DNA from: Sporisorium sorghi
Lineage: Eukaryota > Basidiomycota > Ustilaginomycetes > Ustilaginales > Ustilaginaceae
DNA length: 64,000 nucleotides
NCBI GenBank assembly: GCA_023212695.1
Contig: JALCCG010000041.1
Span: 1-64,000 of the forward strand
Direction: 5' to 3'
How positions within the stretch are numbered: the stretch's first letter is position 1; each line of letters opens with the position of its first letter. The notes beneath the pieces were generated by a model. The model saw only the letters and a program-made list of their open reading frames with translations, made no database searches and was not told the DNA's origin. Position numbers and translations under genes: made by a program. Positions 3,297 to 13,456 of the stretch are shown here, piece by piece.

Positions 3297-3725
3297 ATGA
3301 AGCCTCGCAAGGATACGCCTTATCTGGATTTGTTTCAGATTATTGGCCTTAAGTTAAAGAAAAAAGCAGACGAGAGCATAAAAGAGTTGGGGTTAAACGC
3401 TCAACAAGGAAAAATAATTGGTTATATCTACGAGAACCAAGAAACTGAATTAATTCAGAGGGATCTTGCCGATCGGTTTCATCTGCGCGGGGCTAGCATT
3501 ACAAGTATGCTTCAAGGTCTTGAGAAAAGAGGATTCATCGAGCGAAAAATCCCAGCCAATAATGAACGGCAAAAAAATATTTATGTTTTACCAAAGGCCG
3601 TTGAATTGATTGAAGACTTTAATGACTCCTTCCAAAAGGTGGAGGACGAAATCGTTCAAGTCCTTTCCGAAGAGGAGAAGCAAACCTTAAAGGAATTGTT
3701 GATCAAAATAAATGAACGCTTATAA
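3297..3725 (+). CDS. MarR-family transcriptional regulator
   Basis: A 142-residue winged-helix repressor of the MarR family, acting as a DNA-binding dimer. The central DNA-binding region (about residues 40-95) shows the typical order: a helix, ELIQRDLADRFHLRGASITS as recognition segment, then LEKRGFIERK and a wing with NERQKNIYV. The C-terminal helices for dimerisation follow. ATG 3297 has AGGAGG 7 bases upstream. It is divergent from the amidohydrolase, and two identical-form operators flank or lie in both promoters. From this I infer that it represses both genes and is released by a ligand, perhaps the amidohydrolase substrate. Confidence 0.9.
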   Translation: MKPRKDTPYLDLFQIIGLKLKKKADESIKELGLNAQQGKIIGYIYENQETELIQRDLADRFHLRGASITSMLQGLEKRGFIERKIPANNERQKNIYVLPKAVELIEDFNDSFQKVEDEIVQVLSEEEKQTLKELLIKINERL

Positions 3726-4117
3726 TGACTGCGAGGGTGATCTAAGCCTGATGTAAATTAGGCAGCCGATTACTTCGGCGGCTTTGTGTGCATCATTCTG
3801 AAGGCTTGATCATGGCCCAGAGATTGAGCAAAAAAGTTGGGAGTTAAGCGCCGAAGTGGAGTTTTCGCCGATAGACCCGTTAAGGCTGAACCGTATCATA
3901 AGTGACGGCGAAAAATATACTGTACTGTTCTGCTGATCTTCTATCTTTTTGTAATTTATGTTATGTTAGAATCTGGATTTAAAGCCAAGTAGCAGAGGTG
4001 ATTACTCTGAGTGAAGAGTCTATGTTAATTTTAAAACTTCCATTTTATTGGAGAATGATCGATTCAGTAGTGAGTACTTTACATCAATACCCTAATGTTT
4101 AATTAGGAGGGGTAGAC
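3726..4117. other. Intergenic stretch carrying a repeat
   Basis: No gene is visible. About 3757-3915 resembles 10958-11106 (a hairpin-forming GCCGATTACTTCGGCGGC segment, then GAAGGCTTGA and ATGGCCC, ending in the palindromic unit). The last 30 bases carry the AGGAGG of the next gene. Confidence 0.5.
3862..3915. repeat. Palindromic interspersed repeat, unit 1
   Basis: About 54 bases bounded by the inverted arms TTTTCGCCG and CGGCGAAAA, with the inner core GATAGACCCGTTAAG...ACCGTATCATAAGTGA. Nearly identical units lie at 6441-6492 and 11053-11106. Small size, terminal inverted repeats and lack of coding sequence suggest a REP- or MITE-like element. Confidence 0.75.
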
Positions 4118-4501
4118 ATGAGAAGAAAAAAGTTAGTAATCTCGCTGACAATCATATTTGTTATTGCATATGTTTTATTTGGAGTATGGATTGCTAATGA
4201 CACAAAAGTGGTTTTAGAAAAGGCTATGAGTGGAGCAGCCGATTATCCCGAATATATGAACCAAACGACATATCAAAAAATTAATCCAATCGAACGTGGA
4301 GTTGGAAAAGAAAATTTCACGTATGACAAAGAGTTACATCGTATAGGATTTGTTTTTCCCTTGCATTTCTTTTTTGTATCGAAGGTCTATGTAACACAAC
4401 AGTATGAAAATGATAGTCTCGGATTAAAGGAACCTGTCAATTTAAAACTAAAACTGAAATCTGGTAGATGGTATGCTACCAACGCACATATTAAACCTTA
4501 A
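4118..4501 (+). CDS. Small membrane-anchored protein of unknown function
   Basis: A 127-residue protein with a short basic start (MRRKK) and one hydrophobic helix (about residues 6-26), followed by a soluble, mostly polar domain expected outside the membrane. A strong AGGAGG lies 8 bases before ATG 4118. Base composition is AT-rich compared with neighbours to the right. It stands alone and has its own terminator at 4528. I do not recognise the family. Confidence 0.7.
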   Translation: MRRKKLVISLTIIFVIAYVLFGVWIANDTKVVLEKAMSGAADYPEYMNQTTYQKINPIERGVGKENFTYDKELHRIGFVFPLHFFFVSKVYVTQQYENDSLGLKEPVNLKLKLKSGRWYATNAHIKP

Positions 4502-6284: not shown

Positions 6285-6440
6285 TTATATTGCCTCCTAT
6301 ACTTTTGAACTCTGCTTACAGGTGTTATTTTACGGCCGCGTTATCAATAAAACAAATTATGTTTTATGTGCATATATATAAATATATTTATACTTTGTAC
6401 GTGGTAAGAGCAGTGCCGCCGCGCGGCACACTTAATCGCA

Positions 6441-6492
6441 TTTTTCGCTGATAGACCCGTTAAGCTGAACCGTACCACAAGTAGGGCGGAAA
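6441..6492. repeat. Palindromic interspersed repeat, unit 2
   Basis: TTTTTCGCTG then GATAGACCCGTTAAGCTGAA and CCGTACCACAAGTAGGGCGG. It has the same order as units 1 and 3, with several substitutions in the right arm. Confidence 0.7.
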
Positions 6493-6869: not shown

Positions 6870-7094
6870 ATGATTAATATTTGGTTTGGTGAAATTCAAA
6901 TCGGCAAAGTATCAAGCTCATCGGGCGTTTTTTCAGGAAGTAATGAACAGTGGAAGTTTAGGAATACATCCAAGCAAAACCAAGCGTTTGGATCTATTAA
7001 CGGAGAAGGGTGCTCGATTACCGATATCCTTGTCGTCCTGAATGATGACGATAAGGTGGATTCATCTTCGAGTTCAAAGCCTACTCAAAAGTGA
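6870..7094 (+). CDS. Small GerPA/GerPF-like protein, first gene of cluster
   Basis: A 74-residue protein with N-terminal strand FGEIQIGKV and one copy of a module found six times in this cluster: a G-x-N turn (GVFSGSNEQ), an aromatic residue, a basic residue, a glycine pair (AFGSINGEG) and the terminal DDDKVD acidic motif. This layout resembles the short GerPA/GerPF spore-coat permeability proteins, an inference from pattern only. An AAAGGATG ribosome site precedes ATG 6870. The stop codon overlaps the GTG of the next gene (GTGA), so the two are probably translationally coupled. Confidence 0.65.
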   Translation: MINIWFGEIQIGKVSSSSGVFSGSNEQWKFRNTSKQNQAFGSINGEGCSITDILVVLNDDDKVDSSSSSKPTQK

Positions 7095-7480
7095 TAAACC
7101 CCTTTCGTAAAAAACAGCACCCGCGTACAGATGAGCTGATTCATGATATCCGTGGGCGATTGGAAGAGATGGAGTCTCTGTTAAAACGCATGGAGCAACA
7201 ACTTAGCCAACCGGAATGCCCTCATCCAGGCATTCAGATCGAGACTGTCCACATTCACCAACCTGTTTTGGAGAATCTGGAATTTAGGCTAGATGCTTTG
7301 GATATCGACCAGCTCAGCGGATCACTCAACTTGGGCAACAACTTCGGAACTAAGTGGATCCGAAGTCGTAGCACATCCAAAGCCAAGAGCGGTTCCTCAA
7401 GCACTGCTGCCAACTCTGAGCCATCCAAGGAGAAAATTCATCCAACGTCGTCAGGCTATCGTTGGAATAATCGGGGGTGA
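7091..7480 (+). CDS. GerPC-like coiled-coil protein
   Basis: A 129-residue protein starting at GTG 7091 within the GTGA overlap with the gene before. Residues about 12-40 form a heptad-like coil (LEEMESLLKRMEQQL). The segment ENLEFRLDALDIDQLSGSLN (about 63-82) resembles the conserved core of GerPC, a component of the GerP spore-coat permeability system, here ending in the NLGNN turn. A Ser/Lys-rich low-complexity tail follows. GerPC is usually about 200 residues, so this is a short relative. It overlaps the next gene by a few bases, forming a tight three-gene run. Confidence 0.65.
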   Translation: MINPFRKKQHPRTDELIHDIRGRLEEMESLLKRMEQQLSQPECPHPGIQIETVHIHQPVLENLEFRLDALDIDQLSGSLNLGNNFGTKWIRSRSTSKAKSGSSSTAANSEPSKEKIHPTSSGYRWNNRG

Positions 7481-7767
7481 TGACTGTGGCTTCTTTTATG
7501 TCACCGCAATTCGTGATCGGGTCGATTCGTATTGGATCCGTGGAAAATGCTTCATGCATCAATATGGGGAATAACCGGCCGGCCGGCTTCGAGAACCATC
7601 AGAAATTGACCCAAGGTTTCGGAGCGGTCAGCGGAGATCGGAACCTGGTAGCCGGCATCCGCTCTTTGCTCAACGATTCCGATTTCCTGGATATGCTTCA
7701 TGTCACGGACGGAGACATTCCCGAATGGCTCAACGGTATCATTTCCAAAAACGAGCACATAAAATAG
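7477..7767 (+). CDS. Small GerPA/GerPF-like protein
   Basis: Up to 96 residues. Several starts are possible: GTG 7477, ATG 7480 (both overlapping the upstream stop) and GTG 7486, which sits best behind GGGGGTGA. It has the GerP-type opening FVIGSIRIGSVENASC and one copy of the cluster module: INMGNNRPAGF, a lysine, GFGAVSGD, and NDSDFLD at the end of the module. No signal peptide or membrane helix is seen. Position and overlap suggest co-expression with the two genes upstream and the Hsp20-like gene downstream. Confidence 0.65.
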   Translation: MMTVASFMSPQFVIGSIRIGSVENASCINMGNNRPAGFENHQKLTQGFGAVSGDRNLVAGIRSLLNDSDFLDMLHVTDGDIPEWLNGIISKNEHIK

Positions 7768-7805
7768 GGAGGAACTTCATTTGGAGAAGGGTAGTGACTG
7801 AAGCG

Positions 7806-8264
7806 ATGGATAAAAAAAAAGCCCCAAATAGCATTTGGCAAGGTTTCCTAAATAATTGGTCTGAGCAGATGCTTTTTGCAAACAAGGAATTGAACGCAAA
7901 AGGCATCGAAAATTTCGTTCAAGATACGATGAAAAATTACATGCCCAAAACTATGCTTCAACAGGCAGGCCTTCATCATTTTGCCGACTCACTCGATTAC
8001 GAGCTGTTCGAAACGCATCAATCCATCTTCATAAGATGGAGTATACCAGCCGATGTTTCGCTGAAGAACATAAGATTTTACGTCAATAGTCGAATTTTAA
8101 AAATCGTACATGGCGATTCTTCCGAGGAGATCGCGCTCCCTCACGATGTGGATCCGGACCAGACATCCTCAAAATATGATCAAGGCGTCTTGGAAATCAG
8201 TCTTTCCAAGACAGGCGATCCAGAGCCGTTTCGGGAGATCTTTGTTCGCGACGGAGGCAAATGA
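7806..8264 (+). CDS. Hsp20/alpha-crystallin-like protein, spore-coat type
   Basis: About 152 residues from ATG 7806; GTG 7794 is an alternative behind GGAG. The C-terminal half is an alpha-crystallin-like domain: a strand-rich segment around FIRWSIPADV, then LPHDVDP and the conserved A/K-x-x-x-G-V-L end (KYDQGVLEISL). The N-terminal half is helical. Among spore formers, CotM and CotP are Hsp20-like coat proteins, and its place among GerP-like genes suggests such a role here, although a cytoplasmic holdase cannot be excluded. Confidence 0.75.
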   Translation: MDKKKAPNSIWQGFLNNWSEQMLFANKELNAKGIENFVQDTMKNYMPKTMLQQAGLHHFADSLDYELFETHQSIFIRWSIPADVSLKNIRFYVNSRILKIVHGDSSEEIALPHDVDPDQTSSKYDQGVLEISLSKTGDPEPFREIFVRDGGK

Positions 8265-8310
8265 CTAAACGTTAATCCGAAAATGATAGGGCATTTGAAG
8301 CAAATTGGCC

Positions 8311-8345
8311 ATTCCTTCAAGCAGAGGCTGTCTGCCCGAAGGAAT
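8311..8345. terminator. Hairpin after the first Hsp20-like gene
   Basis: Outer stem ATTCCTTC/GAAGGAAT and inner stem GCAGA/TCTGC, separated by a symmetric two-base internal loop. There is only a weak T tract, so it may be an attenuator or processing site. Confidence 0.5.
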
Positions 8346-8367
8346 ATCCGTCTTTGCGATGGGAAGC

Positions 8368-8505
8368 TCGGCGAGTTGAGTCATGCAGCTTGTCGAATGC
8401 GGTAGGATATCCACGATCCGGACATTATAGCGGACGGAAGAATAAGGGGATATATCTACGGTCATACAAAATAACCGAGTCATTCATGACACCAAGGAGC
8501 CTTAG
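8368..8505 (+). pseudogene. Deleted copy of the two-module GerP-like gene
   Basis: GGCGAGTTGAGTCAT...TTGTCGAATGCGGTAGG matches the gene at 9747 (position about 9886 on). The match then jumps to its last 60 bases (GGATATATCTACGGTCAT, then AGGAGCCTTAGACGG), with roughly 260 bases lost. It is the decayed left copy of a tandem duplication that also produced the gene pair at 8551 and 10329. Confidence 0.8.
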
Positions 8506-8550
8506 ACGGAATATAAATGTAGAGATAGTCTCCTATTGGGGGTGAGCGGG

Positions 8551-8802
8551 TTGGCTGTAATCATTACGTTGGCAGCGGGAGCTATCAATGTGAATCAAAT
8601 GAATAGGGGAAGCGGAATTTCGATAGGGGAGAACTCGCTACCCGGCTGGAGCCAGAATGGGAAAGACAATTACGGCAACGGTCAAAATATTGGGGCTAAC
8701 GTACAAGTGGGATTCGTGGCTACCGTTGTCGATCCAGATGCAATTGATAACCCTATAGGTGAAATTCAACCTTCCGCTTCGTTACAAAATCAAACGATTT
8801 AA
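8551..8802 (+). CDS. Small GerP-like protein, copy 1 of duplicated gene
   Basis: 83 residues from TTG 8551, chosen because GGGGGTGA lies 5 bases upstream and because the paralogue at 10329 has the same arrangement and exactly the same length. The N-terminal strands (TLAAGAINVNQM) lead into one cluster module: GISIGENSLPGW, a lysine, NYGNGQNIG and DPDAIDN. The two paralogues are closely similar throughout, so the protein is probably under selection although its partner gene upstream has decayed. Confidence 0.7.
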   Translation: MAVIITLAAGAINVNQMNRGSGISIGENSLPGWSQNGKDNYGNGQNIGANVQVGFVATVVDPDAIDNPIGEIQPSASLQNQTI

Positions 8803-8822
8803 GAAAAAGGGAGGCGTGACCC

Positions 8823-9089
8823 ATGGGAGATAAGCCGGTTTTAAAACCTTGCATTCGTTGTGGGCGAATACCGGGCGAGGAAGATGAGTATTGCAGCGAC
8901 TGCGGAGTTCCGATTCTAAACCGTTGTTCGGACGAACCCGGAATATTTGGCAAAGGATGTACTTTTGTGAATCCTCCAACGGCGGTTTATTGCACAAAAT
9001 GTGGGGAGCCTACCGTTTATCAATTAAATGGTTTGATCCAGCCGAAGTATCCCAATGGAAACAGACCCAAGTCTTCGGATATCAATTAG
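8823..9089 (+). CDS. Zinc-ribbon protein in the GerP-like cluster
   Basis: An 88-residue protein with two CxxC zinc-ribbon knuckle pairs: CIRC at residues 10-13 with CSDC at 24-27, then Cys at 35 and 43 with CTKC at 53-56. The ribosome site AAGGGAGG is 8 bases before ATG 8823. Two ribbons in tandem suggest a structural or binding role rather than an enzyme. It lies 20 bases after the GerP-like gene and before the second Hsp20-like gene, so it belongs to the cluster by position. The family is not recognised. Confidence 0.7.
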   Translation: MGDKPVLKPCIRCGRIPGEEDEYCSDCGVPILNRCSDEPGIFGKGCTFVNPPTAVYCTKCGEPTVYQLNGLIQPKYPNGNRPKSSDIN

Positions 9090-9165
9090 TTTCTCATATG
9101 GGGCCGCCGATGATATAGCTTATGTTTGCCTTCCTTAATCAAGATTCTCGCTTGGAGGGATTAGT

Positions 9166-9606
9166 ATGGAGGAGCGGATAAAGACGAATACACCGAAAGA
9201 TTTCTATAGCCAGGTGACTGAGGTACTCGGCGATGACTTTTGGAGTGAAATGAGTGAGCTTCTACCTAATTCGGGTCCTCGGATCGACGTCTTTCATACT
9301 TCAACAACGGTGGTTGTTTTAGTAGAGCTTCCCGGTTTGGAATCGGTGGAGCAAATAAGACTTCAATTAATCGGGCAGACGCTGGAATTGGAAGGCGACT
9401 TGCCTTGTCATTATCCCGTTACCGGTCCTCGGATCACAATAAGTGAGAGGTTCTTTGGCCCGTTCTGTCGGTCGCTGGCTTTGCCGAAGCCTGTGTCCGC
9501 TGAAGCAATTTCCGCGAAGTACACCAAAGGTTTGCTGGTCGTGGTGCTGCAAATTATCCAAGATGAAAATCAAACCCCGATCCAAGTCGATTTTGAACGA
9601 TCCTGA
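9166..9606 (+). CDS. Second Hsp20-like protein
   Basis: A 146-residue alpha-crystallin-domain protein. TTVVVLVELPGLESVEQIRL starts the domain, ERFFGPFCRSLALPK matches the usual ER-F-G-F-R-LP signature, and AKYTKGLLVVVL is the A-x-x-x-x-G-L-L end signature, so the domain is complete. The N-terminal 40 residues are polar. GGAGGG precedes ATG 9166. It is more canonical than the Hsp20-like protein at 7806. Placement inside the GerP-like cluster suggests assembly or protection of coat proteins. Confidence 0.8.
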   Translation: MEERIKTNTPKDFYSQVTEVLGDDFWSEMSELLPNSGPRIDVFHTSTTVVVLVELPGLESVEQIRLQLIGQTLELEGDLPCHYPVTGPRITISERFFGPFCRSLALPKPVSAEAISAKYTKGLLVVVLQIIQDENQTPIQVDFERS

Positions 9607-9746
9607 TCCAGCTAATGATGTTAATAATGAAGAACCCTGTTTACGAAGTAATTAGACTGGGATAGTTCACGACATTGTTTAAGAGAGAAACGGAAAAGTT
9701 TAGAGCATCAGTGTATTCATTACTTCTGATAAAGGAGGTCTAGTCG

Positions 9747-10283
9747 TTGAACGTATCGGGACAGAAGGCAAGCGTCATATTTCAAAAAATGATCGTTAAC
9801 CATCTCGAGGATACTTCGGGGATTTTTATTGGGACCAACCAAGCGATTGGGTGGAGTACGATTAAAAAAACAAACCAAGGATTCGGCGAGTTGAGTCATA
9901 CGGTTTTGTCGAATGCGGTAGGTGTTCTCCATGATGAGGATATTGTAGACTTCACCATTCAGGATTATCATAATATCATCTTAACGGAAGTTCCCAATAA
10001 CCAGCAGCAATGCGCCATTCATTTCGGCTCCCTCCAGACGAATTCTTTAATCAACTCTTGTGCGATTGACTTGGGCGACAATAAGCAATTGGGATGGAGA
10101 ACTGCCCGTAAAGATAACTTTGGAGTTGGCAAACCCATTGGAATCAATTCGCTAAAACGGACCATTGGGGTACTTAACGATAACGATGCCGTGGATGCGA
10201 CGATAATTACAAACCAGCATGACGAAGATATATCTACGGTCATAAAAAATATTCGAATCACTCAGGACACCGAGGAGACTTAG
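9747..10283 (+). CDS. GerP-like protein with two tandem modules
   Basis: 178 residues from TTG 9747, firmly supported by AAAGGAGG 8 bases upstream. It contains two copies of the cluster module: residues about 24-69 (GIFIGTNQAIGW, TNQGFGELSH, HDEDIVD) and about 102-150 (CAIDLGDNKQLGW, NFGVGKPIG, NDNDAVD). The spacing of glycine, tryptophan, lysine and D-x-D-x-x-D residues is the same in each. A linker and a short C-terminal tail complete it. The left duplicate of this gene (8368-8505) is a remnant. Confidence 0.7.
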   Translation: MNVSGQKASVIFQKMIVNHLEDTSGIFIGTNQAIGWSTIKKTNQGFGELSHTVLSNAVGVLHDEDIVDFTIQDYHNIILTEVPNNQQQCAIHFGSLQTNSLINSCAIDLGDNKQLGWRTARKDNFGVGKPIGINSLKRTIGVLNDNDAVDATIITNQHDEDISTVIKNIRITQDTEET

Positions 10284-10328
10284 ATGGAATGTAATTATAG
10301 GGATAGGCTCTTATCGGAGGTGAGTTGG

Positions 10329-10580
10329 TTGGCTATCAACATATCGTTGGGGGCGGGAGCTATTAGTGTGAATCAATTGAATAAGGGGTGCACGATTGCA
10401 GTAGGAGAAAATTCTCAGCCCGGTTGGAGCCAGAAAGGGAAACACAATTACGCTAACTGTCAAAATATAGGGATCAACGTACAAACGGAATTCTTCGCTA
10501 TCGTTTTCGATAAAGATGTGATCGATAACCGGATAAGTGGCATCAAATCTTTCGCTTCGTTGCAAAATCAAATGGCTTAA
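10329..10580 (+). CDS. Small GerP-like protein, copy 2 of duplicated gene
   Basis: 83 residues from TTG 10329 with GGAGGTGA 5 bases upstream. It is a paralogue of the gene at 8551 with the same length and the same module (CTIAVGENSQPGW, NYANCQNIG, DKDVIDN). Some glycines conserved in the other copies are changed (ANC for GNG), suggesting relaxed constraint in this copy. Confidence 0.7.
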   Translation: MAINISLGAGAISVNQLNKGCTIAVGENSQPGWSQKGKHNYANCQNIGINVQTEFFAIVFDKDVIDNRISGIKSFASLQNQMA

Positions 10581-11376
10581 GAAACATCTTTCTATGACAC
10601 CTTGGGATCGATTTGATGAGGCTGTAGAATGGTATCAACTGAGAAATGGGATGGAGGCGAAAAGGAACGGTCCTGACGCCAGCAAAAAAGCTTTTCTTTT
10701 CATACTGATATGGGACAGGCTAACCTAAAATCGTAATTACGGCTTTTTTGGACATGGATACTTTTGGCTTGATGTGGCGATGGCGACTATGGCGATACCG
10801 GCTGAGAGTAGAGAGCGGTTGTTGGATGTATATTTGGAAACGGCAAATGGACAGTGAGCGAATTGAGTATTCTTGAGGGTTTTGCTGGAGTCATGTTTGG
10901 TTACTTCGCTTTCTAGATTAACGGAAACGACAACGAGAGTGGAATCACTGACAATCAGGCCGCCGATGACTTCGGTGGCCTTCTGTCATGTTAAGAAGGC
11001 TTGAATCATAGCCCTTGGAGCGAGTAAGATTGGCAGCTATGTGTCGCGGGGATTTTTCTCCGATAGACCCGTTAAGCTGAACCGTATCATAAGTGACGGC
11101 GAAAAATGTTGTGACAAGAGGGATGTAGATGCAGCCTTATCTCTTCTTTGCAATGATGGGGGAGGCTTAGAAAGGAAAATGCCCCCGTACCTTTGGCAAG
11201 GATTGACGGGAGCATTCCAATCAATTGTTGAAGTAGTGTGACTGTTGGAGGTCGGGGAGCAGTGCTGGCTGGACGGGCCTCCATCCCAGAAGTTCCTGCG
11301 TTGCAGTGCTTGATCTTGGGATATCGAGCCCTGCAAGTGAGTAATACACCAATTGACCTAAAAGGAGCTTGTTAAA
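10581..11376. other. Stretch without recognised genes
   Basis: A 44-codon frame at 10594-10728 (MTPWDRFDEAVEWYQ) ends just before a weak terminator-like palindrome (CGTAATTACG plus six T, 10736-10752), but it has no ribosome site. The rest holds the long repeat copy 10958-11106. A plus-strand frame ending at 11241 (LERKMPPYLWQGLTGAFQS) may be another remnant. Confidence 0.35.
11053..11106. repeat. Palindromic interspersed repeat, unit 3
   Basis: Arms TTTTTCTCCG and CGGCGAAAAA around GATAGACCCGTTAAGCTGAA and CCGTATCATAAGTGA. The similarity to the copy at 3757-3915 extends about 95 bases to the left (from about 10958), including the GCCGATGACTTCGGTGGC hairpin. Confidence 0.75.
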
Positions 11377-12982: not shown

Positions 12983-13456
12983 TCGCGAAGGTGTACATAT
13001 CCCGATGGAAAGTTTAAGCCAGATCATGCCGTGACACGCTCGGAATTTGTAGTCATGCTAATGAATGCGCTGAAGATGCAAGAAGCAGGATCGGAGCTGA
13101 TATTCACAGATAAGGCTGAGATCGGAGCATGGGCACAGAAAGCAGTCTCACAAGCACTACAACTGGGCATTATTAAGGGCTATGAAGACGGTACCTTCGG
13201 TCCGAATCGAAATATAACGCGCGCTGAGATAGCGATGATGATTGCGAAGACACTCAAGTTACCGAACGAAGAGAACGCGATAACTTCTTTCACAGATGAC
13301 AAGGAAATTCCTGTCTGGGCTAAAGGTGCAGTGGAAGCCCTAAAGGATAATGGCATCATACAAGGAACGGGTACTAACCAATTCAACCCTCGTGCCGAAA
13401 CTACGAGAGCAGAGGCAGCAACCATATTATTAAACATGCTAGATGACTTAAAATAA
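12983..13456 (+). pseudogene. S-layer homology (SLH) domain remnant, 5' truncated
   Basis: An open frame from 12983 with no proper start codon or ribosome site. It contains the end of one SLH motif (YPDGKFKPDHAVTRSEF) and two complete ones (FTDKAEIGAWAQKAV...GYEDGTFGPNRNITRAE and FTDDKEIPVWAKGAV...FNPRAETTRAE). Three C-terminal SLH motifs normally anchor surface proteins to pyruvylated cell-wall polymer. Signal peptide and functional domain are missing, so this is the 3' stump of a larger surface-protein gene. GTG 13031 could only give a 141-residue fragment. A good terminator follows. Confidence 0.8.

Follow-up and report, generated by a model that had tools for sequence, protein, structure and literature searches.

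A cluster of GerP-like module genes interleaved with Hsp20-type genes in Paenibacillus glucanolyticus sequence

Gene content and source of the cluster

The DNA analysed here (the window) comprises positions 1 to 64,000 of contig JALCCG010000041.1 in the Sporisorium sorghi assembly GCA_023212695.1, and its segment 6870–10580 carries, on the plus strand, nine intact small genes that we discuss as a candidate GerP-family spore-coat cluster. Six modules of the GerPA/GerPF type are spread over five of these genes: one each in g1 (6870–7094, 74 amino acids), g3 (7480–7767, with a start at 7477, 7480 or 7486; the most conserved member), g6 (8551–8802, start at 8536 or 8551; distinguished by a conserved C-terminal tail) and its paralogue and duplicate g10 (10329–10580, start at 10284 or 10329), and two in g9 (9747–10283). 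The other four encode a GerPC-like protein of 129 amino acids with a coil and the GerPC core motif (g2, 7091–7480), a divergent Hsp20/CS-domain protein (g4, 7806–8264; PF00011), a double zinc-ribbon protein (g7, 8823–9089; PF12773) and an Hsp20/alpha-crystallin protein (g8, 9166–9606; PF00011). Upstream of g6, at about 8368–8535 of the same strand, lies g9', what is left of a decayed second copy of g9.

Genes g1 and g2 overlap by 4 bases, g2 and g3 by 1 or 4 bases depending on the start of g3, and g9 and g10 abut, which suggests translational coupling within g1-g2-g3 and within g9-g10. The original prediction, made from the letters of the window and a list of open reading frames, had placed two alpha-crystallin proteins and a double zinc-ribbon protein among the module genes, and had three of the latter overlapping or nearly touching a gene for a GerPC-like protein; the positions of g4, g8 and g7 and the measured g1/g2 and g2/g3 overlaps bear this out. 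Its six modules in five genes were likewise recovered, with a unit nearer 60 than the proposed 45 residues.

The window sequence differs from that of Paenibacillus glucanolyticus NBRC 15330 by one mismatch over 16,789 bases. Because this P. glucanolyticus sequence sits in an assembly of 23.2 Mb and 469 contigs (G000, where the window is contig C352), we infer that the contig is a bacterial contaminant in another organism's, larger genome project. Questions at the genome level were therefore answered with the NBRC 15330 genome (G001) instead of G000.

Relation of the module proteins to GerPA and GerPF

The module genes match one another with E values of 1e-4 to 1e-12, and g6 matches g10 at 3e-29 (locus L007, the window's own sequence). 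Since the genes match each other, and since the modules and their partners recur in other genomes, the modules are more than a chance resemblance. At E ≤ 0.1 the GerPA/GerPF profile PF10676 matches 23 of the 27 members of the g9 family (best 4.8e-8), 20 of 25 in the g3 family (best 9.4e-5) and 8 of the 20 sequences in a set of mixed modules (best 1.5e-7), the member counts including the window's own protein, which is itself without a match. A precomputed PF10676 assignment is present on 14 of 43 g9 homologues, and g3 shares 39–85% identity with 24 relatives.

Profile-profile comparison with canonical GerPA gave 95.5% (E 1.3e-8) for the g6 family, 66% (E 5.5e-5) for the g3 family, 63% (E 7e-5) for the g1 family and 48% (E 1.9e-4) for the g9 family; the canonical GerPA and GerPC profiles were built from sets at gerP loci. 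Control pairings, namely modules with GerPC and the Hsp20 and zinc-ribbon families with either profile, all stayed below 1%. Relatives of the cluster proteins yielded single weak matches to GerPB and GerPE. Against a profile built from relatives of g3, no solved structure scored an E value below 0.4. The cluster departs in gene order and content from the six-gene gerPA-F operon layout.

The C-terminal tail of g6 and g10, Q-x-Q-x-[LAI], is conserved in the window, in other Paenibacillus and in Cohnella, Oceanobacillus and Bacillus, and is absent from locus L031. Its glutamines could be cross-linking sites.

The GerPC-like and zinc-ribbon proteins

Of the 25 members of the g2 family, 21, the window's included, match the GerPC profile PF10737 at E ≤ 0.1, and two orthologues exceed its cut-off in the genome search (25.4 and 23.0 bits; G004:C6 and G007:C4). 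Profile-profile comparison of g2 with GerPC reached 96.1% (E 3.3e-9) over 55 columns, an alignment in which g2 contains the coil and the core motif of the GerPC N-terminal half. The alignment stops after the core; at 129 amino acids, g2 is without the C-terminal half of GerPC, a protein of about 200 residues.

On sequence grounds, the window's module proteins and g2 are remote homologues of the GerP proteins that fall outside strict membership of PF10676 and PF10737. The GerP likeness originally proposed from residue patterns is thus recovered by profile similarity for the module families and for the g2 family, while the window's own proteins score below the Pfam cut-offs for GerPA and GerPC.

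The zinc ribbon g7 matches PF12773 with 28.5 bits, over the cut-off of 27.3, and its paired CxxC cysteines are kept in relatives. Among the nine proteins it is the only one with a PHROG match at E ≤ 1e-3. A g7 relative (3e-23) occurs at the canonical gerP locus of Paenibacillus abyssi (L052). At 3456–4456 of that locus, upstream of canonical gerPA, there is a second small gerP-like set with a short GerPC-like protein and a zinc ribbon; one further open reading frame of this set looks GerPB-like by eye.

Conservation and distribution

An alignment of g9 retrieved 42 loci, P. glucanolyticus included. The labels g1, g3, g6 and g9 were assigned by best hidden Markov model (HMM) or best BLAST match and are approximate, so that our counts use only the class of each protein (module, GerPC-like, Hsp20 or zinc ribbon). 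Members labelled g2, g3, g6, g8 and g9 each occur in 41 of the 42 loci, and a GerPC-like protein, an Hsp20 protein and at least two modules stand together in 41, the exception being L024. Neither of two findings that would have told against the original prediction, a lack of profile similarity to GerP proteins and a neighbourhood not kept in other genomes, was obtained. Two members are more restricted: g4 is found in 11 of the 17 loci L008–L024 and g7 in 13 of them, and neither in any of the 24 loci L025–L048. In most relatives g9 and g6 adjoin.

The g3 profile detected 463 proteins at E ≤ 1e-3 among 7,986 scored candidates, with Brevibacillus, Alicyclobacillus, Schinkia, Halobacillus and Bacillus represented among the 120 matches listed. 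Matches occur in 23 of 398 genomes sampled across the phylum and in 11 of 197 sampled from the family of P. glucanolyticus. Within its genus the only positive genome among 100 is NBRC 15330 itself, and all three g3-profile matches of that genome fall inside this cluster. PF10676 has no match in G000 or in NBRC 15330, and PF10737 none in NBRC 15330; in the genus, PF10676 matches 24 of 100 genomes, NBRC 15330 not among them. Divergent modules like those of the window would be missed by PF10676 in the 76 genomes of the genus that are without a match, but apart from NBRC 15330 the g3 profile detects none in these either.

In 11 of the 14 carrier genomes examined, PF10676 has a strong match of over 86 bits outside the cluster. 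Among the three others, G002 yields a single partial match of 32.6 bits, and G014 and NBRC 15330 yield none. As the cluster thus usually occurs together with canonical gerP, it is not simply a gerP replacement.

Hsp20-type proteins and their linkage to GerP-family genes

Both Hsp20-type proteins of the cluster exceed the PF00011 cut-off of 20.8 bits, g8 with 31.7 bits and g4 with 22.0 bits across 35 residues only. Among 24 aligned members of the g4 family, 11 match HSP20 and 16 the CS domain at E ≤ 0.1, and the joint profile of the family retrieves small heat-shock protein (sHsp) structures from the PDB, namely 6ewn (E 3.4e-9) and 4rzk.

A distant set of 20 loci was collected with g3 and wide flanks. 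By the cluster HMMs, an Hsp20-type gene is present in 17 of these loci and a GerPC-like gene in 13. The PF00011 search confirms a nearby Hsp20 gene in 15 of the 20, against 0.28 expected from the 59 HSP20 matches in their genomes, an expectation uncorrected for the kinship of the genomes.

A g4-type open reading frame that aligns with g4 lies beside gerPA, divergently transcribed, at 20 of 20 PF10676 loci from 19 Paenibacillus genomes (L087–L106); at L087 a small gerPA-like open reading frame stands between the two. Because one genus represents one evolutionary sample, these loci document a conserved arrangement and not 20 independent events. Six further loci (L049–L054) were examined. An Hsp20-type gene adjoins gerPA in L049 of Paenibacillus sp. 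RC67, L051 of P. sedimenti and L052 of P. abyssi, and follows a gerPF-type gene in the second gerP operon of Paenibacillus sp. RC67 (L053). In 5.5 kb of Bacillus tequilensis (L054), two GerPF-like genes accompany an Hsp20 gene with a PF00011 match and a gene that we take to be DUF421-like; we presume this to be the cotP-ydgA-ydgB region. No Hsp20-type gene was found in the 4 kb of L050, where B. tequilensis has its canonical gerP operon, the only Bacillus gerP operon covered; this fits the original statement that the B. subtilis gerP operon has no Hsp20 member. Hsp20-type genes beside GerP-family genes are not peculiar to the window cluster, since they also stand beside canonical gerPA in Paenibacillus and in the cotP-like locus L054.

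Duplication, flanking repeats and probable acquisition

The 300-bp block at 10227–10526 is 78% identical to 8449–8748, and the remnant g9' (8368–8535) consists of two blocks with 80% and 82% identity to the first module of g9 and to the g9/g10 junction. Together, the remnant and the repeated block point to duplication of a g9-g6 block followed by loss, with g10 as the second g6.

The cluster is flanked by direct 43-bp repeats on the plus strand (6440–6482 and 11052–11094, 91% identity), whose 25-bp core is found twice in the window when up to 3 mismatches are allowed, with 0 expected. A third copy lies outside the cluster at 3862–3916 (96% over 55 bases), which marks the repeat as a dispersed element; it does not prove insertion. 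More widely, a degenerate repeat family occupies 3756–3916, 6440–6492 and 10953–11107, the 25-bp core being exact in two of these and containing one inserted base in the third. These degenerate repeats resemble the ends of an old insertion element; no transposase was identified with them, and Rfam found nothing in the window. On the left side, the DNA flanking the cluster resembles that of five relatives only up to 6301–6393, just before the left repeat. The left LysR-PfpI pair was found in five relatives and synteny of the right flank was not, so that an empty site proving insertion was not obtained. Downstream of the cluster, the window encodes an SLH-domain protein (13031–13456; PF00395, 107 bits).

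In an unrooted concatenated tree, a split with 100% support sets the window, Cohnella thermotolerans and Cohnella lubricantis apart from the 15 other loci, and the window's branch is long. Given the presence of the cluster in one of 100 genomes of the genus, the simplest reading is that P. glucanolyticus probably acquired it horizontally, the alternative being multiple loss. The donor would have been Cohnella-like, and the cluster was probably duplicated in part.

Upstream regions

We compared 94 upstream regions from the 42 loci with 200 shuffled sets. A sigma-K-like pattern occurs in 23 of the 94, compared with 2.2 in the shuffles (maximum 7), and the sigma-K -10 element alone in 26, compared with 4.8. 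The corresponding numbers are 3 and 0.1 for a sigma-E-like pattern and 5 and 5.2 for a sigma-A-like pattern. Fifteen of the 26 matches to the -10 element come from related Paenibacillus, where they mark a single site conserved ahead of the Hsp20 gene; Oceanobacillus, Neobacillus and two Bacillus contribute others (L025, L026, L027 and L030).

Proposed role

We consider it reasonably probable that these genes form a divergent GerP-family spore-coat cluster, that is, a mother-cell module for coat permeability or assembly that is equipped with its own sHsp partner. Judged from sequence, a function in coat assembly or permeability is plausible. In such a scheme, the mother cell would make the cluster proteins in late sporulation. 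The five small proteins with the GerPA/GerPF module would assemble as oligomers, and the short GerPC-like protein would supply the coil and the GerPC core motif. The two dedicated Hsp20-type proteins would hold or build the oligomers, keeping the module subunits soluble and co-assembling with them into the coat, and the zinc-ribbon protein may be an accessory of some Paenibacillaceae versions. Once in the coat, the cluster proteins would set its permeability to small germinants, as is thought for the classical gerP products, inner-coat proteins that are believed to make up germinant channels (PMC11841064). No canonical GerPA/GerPF or GerPC was detected in P. glucanolyticus, whereas most other carriers examined also have a canonical gerP, so that elsewhere the cluster would add to gerP without replacing it. 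Seen in this way, the system called possibly undescribed in the original prediction would be a divergent branch of GerP with a recurrent sHsp partner and not an unrelated new system.

Several observations weigh against this interpretation. The window's own g1, g3, g6, g9 and g10 have no PF10676 match at E ≤ 1 and do not reach its cut-off (27.3 bits), g2 stays under that of PF10737 (16.7 against 22.4 bits), and the Pfam scan of the window genes gave no match to the GerPB, GerPD or GerPE profiles. Structure prediction produced no confident fold for g9 (27 sequences; mean predicted local distance difference test score (pLDDT) 32, predicted template modelling score (pTM) 0.26) or for g3 (90 sequences; mean pLDDT 67, pTM 0.28). 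Five of the 20 distant loci are without a PF00011 match. The genome-wide PF00011 search (E 1e-3) matched none of the 20 g4-type genes linked to gerPA in Paenibacillus, and their Hsp20 label accordingly derives from the g4 family. With a stricter -35 element the sigma-K excess shrinks to 6 of 94 regions versus 1.1 in the shuffles (maximum 4), and matches to the -10 element are absent from the three upstream regions of the window (L007) and present in only 2 of 27 in L008–L024. Co-occurrence with sporulation genes was discarded as evidence. Spo0A is present in all 23 g3-positive genomes and in 345 of the 398 sampled, and SpoIVA in 21 of 23 positive and 52 of 57 sampled negative genomes; nearly the whole sample has both, so neither discriminates. 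The two g3-positive genomes without a SpoIVA match measure 1.8 and 2.0 Mb.

A different account of the same genes, which we regard as unlikely, is that they encode structural coat proteins of the CotP/CotM and GerPF kind that serve resistance or cross-linking and not permeability, the Hsp20 proteins being building blocks instead of chaperones. This would agree with the description of CotP as a spore-coat protein (PMC4893254), with the naming of cotM and cotP among the coat genes repressed by GerE (PMC11841064), with the UniRef name 'Spore coat protein' borne by one g3 relative (P0079), and with the 76 Paenibacillus genomes that are without a PF10676 match, in which canonical GerPA/GerPF would be dispensable. 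The modules and their GerPC-like partner belong, however, to a superfamily with a permeability phenotype: Bacillus anthracis without the gerP operon germinates slowly, and the defect is gone once the coat is removed (PMC2817736). This argument is in turn qualified by the gerPE and gerPF-null mutants of the same study, which coat removal failed to rescue; that study also took a role beyond the coat into consideration.

Rather improbable, in our view, is a third explanation, by which the Hsp20 proteins are general stress chaperones that neighbour GerP genes only through shared expression in late starvation. A general role of Hsp20 in starved cells does exist, as an hsp20 knock-out in B. thuringiensis reduced sporulation and altered many pathways (PMC6737285). 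Against it, the linkage recurs far above chance across taxa and in several arrangements, be it inside the cluster, in divergent orientation to gerPA or after gerPF, and 13 of the 19 Paenibacillus genomes encode an ordinary Hsp20 elsewhere, the gerP-linked gene being too divergent for PF00011. That the cluster has no current role in P. glucanolyticus, being an import that is mobile or in decay, as its occurrence in one of 100 genomes of the genus, the flanking repeats, the decayed g9 copy and the long tree branch might suggest, is very improbable in view of nine intact reading frames with overlapping starts, a near-identical copy in another public assembly and the lack of any g9 match in phage or plasmid collections at E 1e-5.

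Returning to the divergent GerP-family cluster as the preferred reading, a bolder version of it can be offered tentatively, at somewhat less than even confidence. GerP modules and dedicated divergent Hsp20 proteins may constitute one conserved sporulation machine across Bacillota, in which the sHsp would serve the coat layer that governs germinant permeability as a permanent partner in assembly or as one of its structural subunits, and not as a stress chaperone, with P. glucanolyticus relying on its acquired version as the sole GerP-type system. How small germinants pass through the spore coat has long been an unsettled question, and what is known of GerP comes mainly from mutant phenotypes; the recurrent link between GerP and divergent Hsp20 proteins leads to the concrete hypothesis of a dedicated coat chaperone or co-structural partner.

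Comparison with known systems

The families involved are known; neither the cluster as a combination nor the wide reach of the link between GerP and Hsp20 was found in the open-access literature, although an earlier mention in subscription journals is possible. In that open-access literature, gerP or GerPF was found together with Hsp20 in a single genome report, which places them in different tables. PMC11925247 names an operon ydgA-ydgB, and CotP and GerPA-PF are tabulated with counts in a study of B. subtilis spores (PMC8005191).

With the gerPABCDEF operon the cluster shares the type of module, including the conserved Gly/Asn core and, in most modules, the closing D-x-D-x-x-D, as well as the GerPC core motif (PF10737) and small, partly overlapping genes. 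It differs in its module proteins, which comprise three with one module of another subtype, one duplicate and one with two modules, in a GerPC-like protein that lacks the C-terminal half of GerPC, in the missing GerPB, GerPD and GerPE matches, and in the Hsp20 and zinc-ribbon genes inside the cluster.

Closer in one respect are the Paenibacillus gerP loci (L087–L106, L049, L051 and L052), where a g4-type gene lies beside gerPA, and L053, where it comes after gerPF; L052 has a g7-type zinc ribbon in addition. In contrast to the cluster, these loci contain the canonical gerP set, and their Hsp20-like gene is usually divergent from gerPA and outside the operon. The cotP-like locus of B. tequilensis also resembles the cluster in having GerPF-like genes directly beside an Hsp20 gene; it consists of two GerPF-like genes and one Hsp20 gene only, with no GerPC-like or zinc-ribbon gene in its 5.5 kb. 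CotM and CotP function as coat proteins of the alpha-crystallin type. They share the Hsp20 family with g4 and g8, and coat location is a CotM/CotP feature, whereas g4 and g8 appear to belong to other, divergent subfamilies that are linked to GerP modules.

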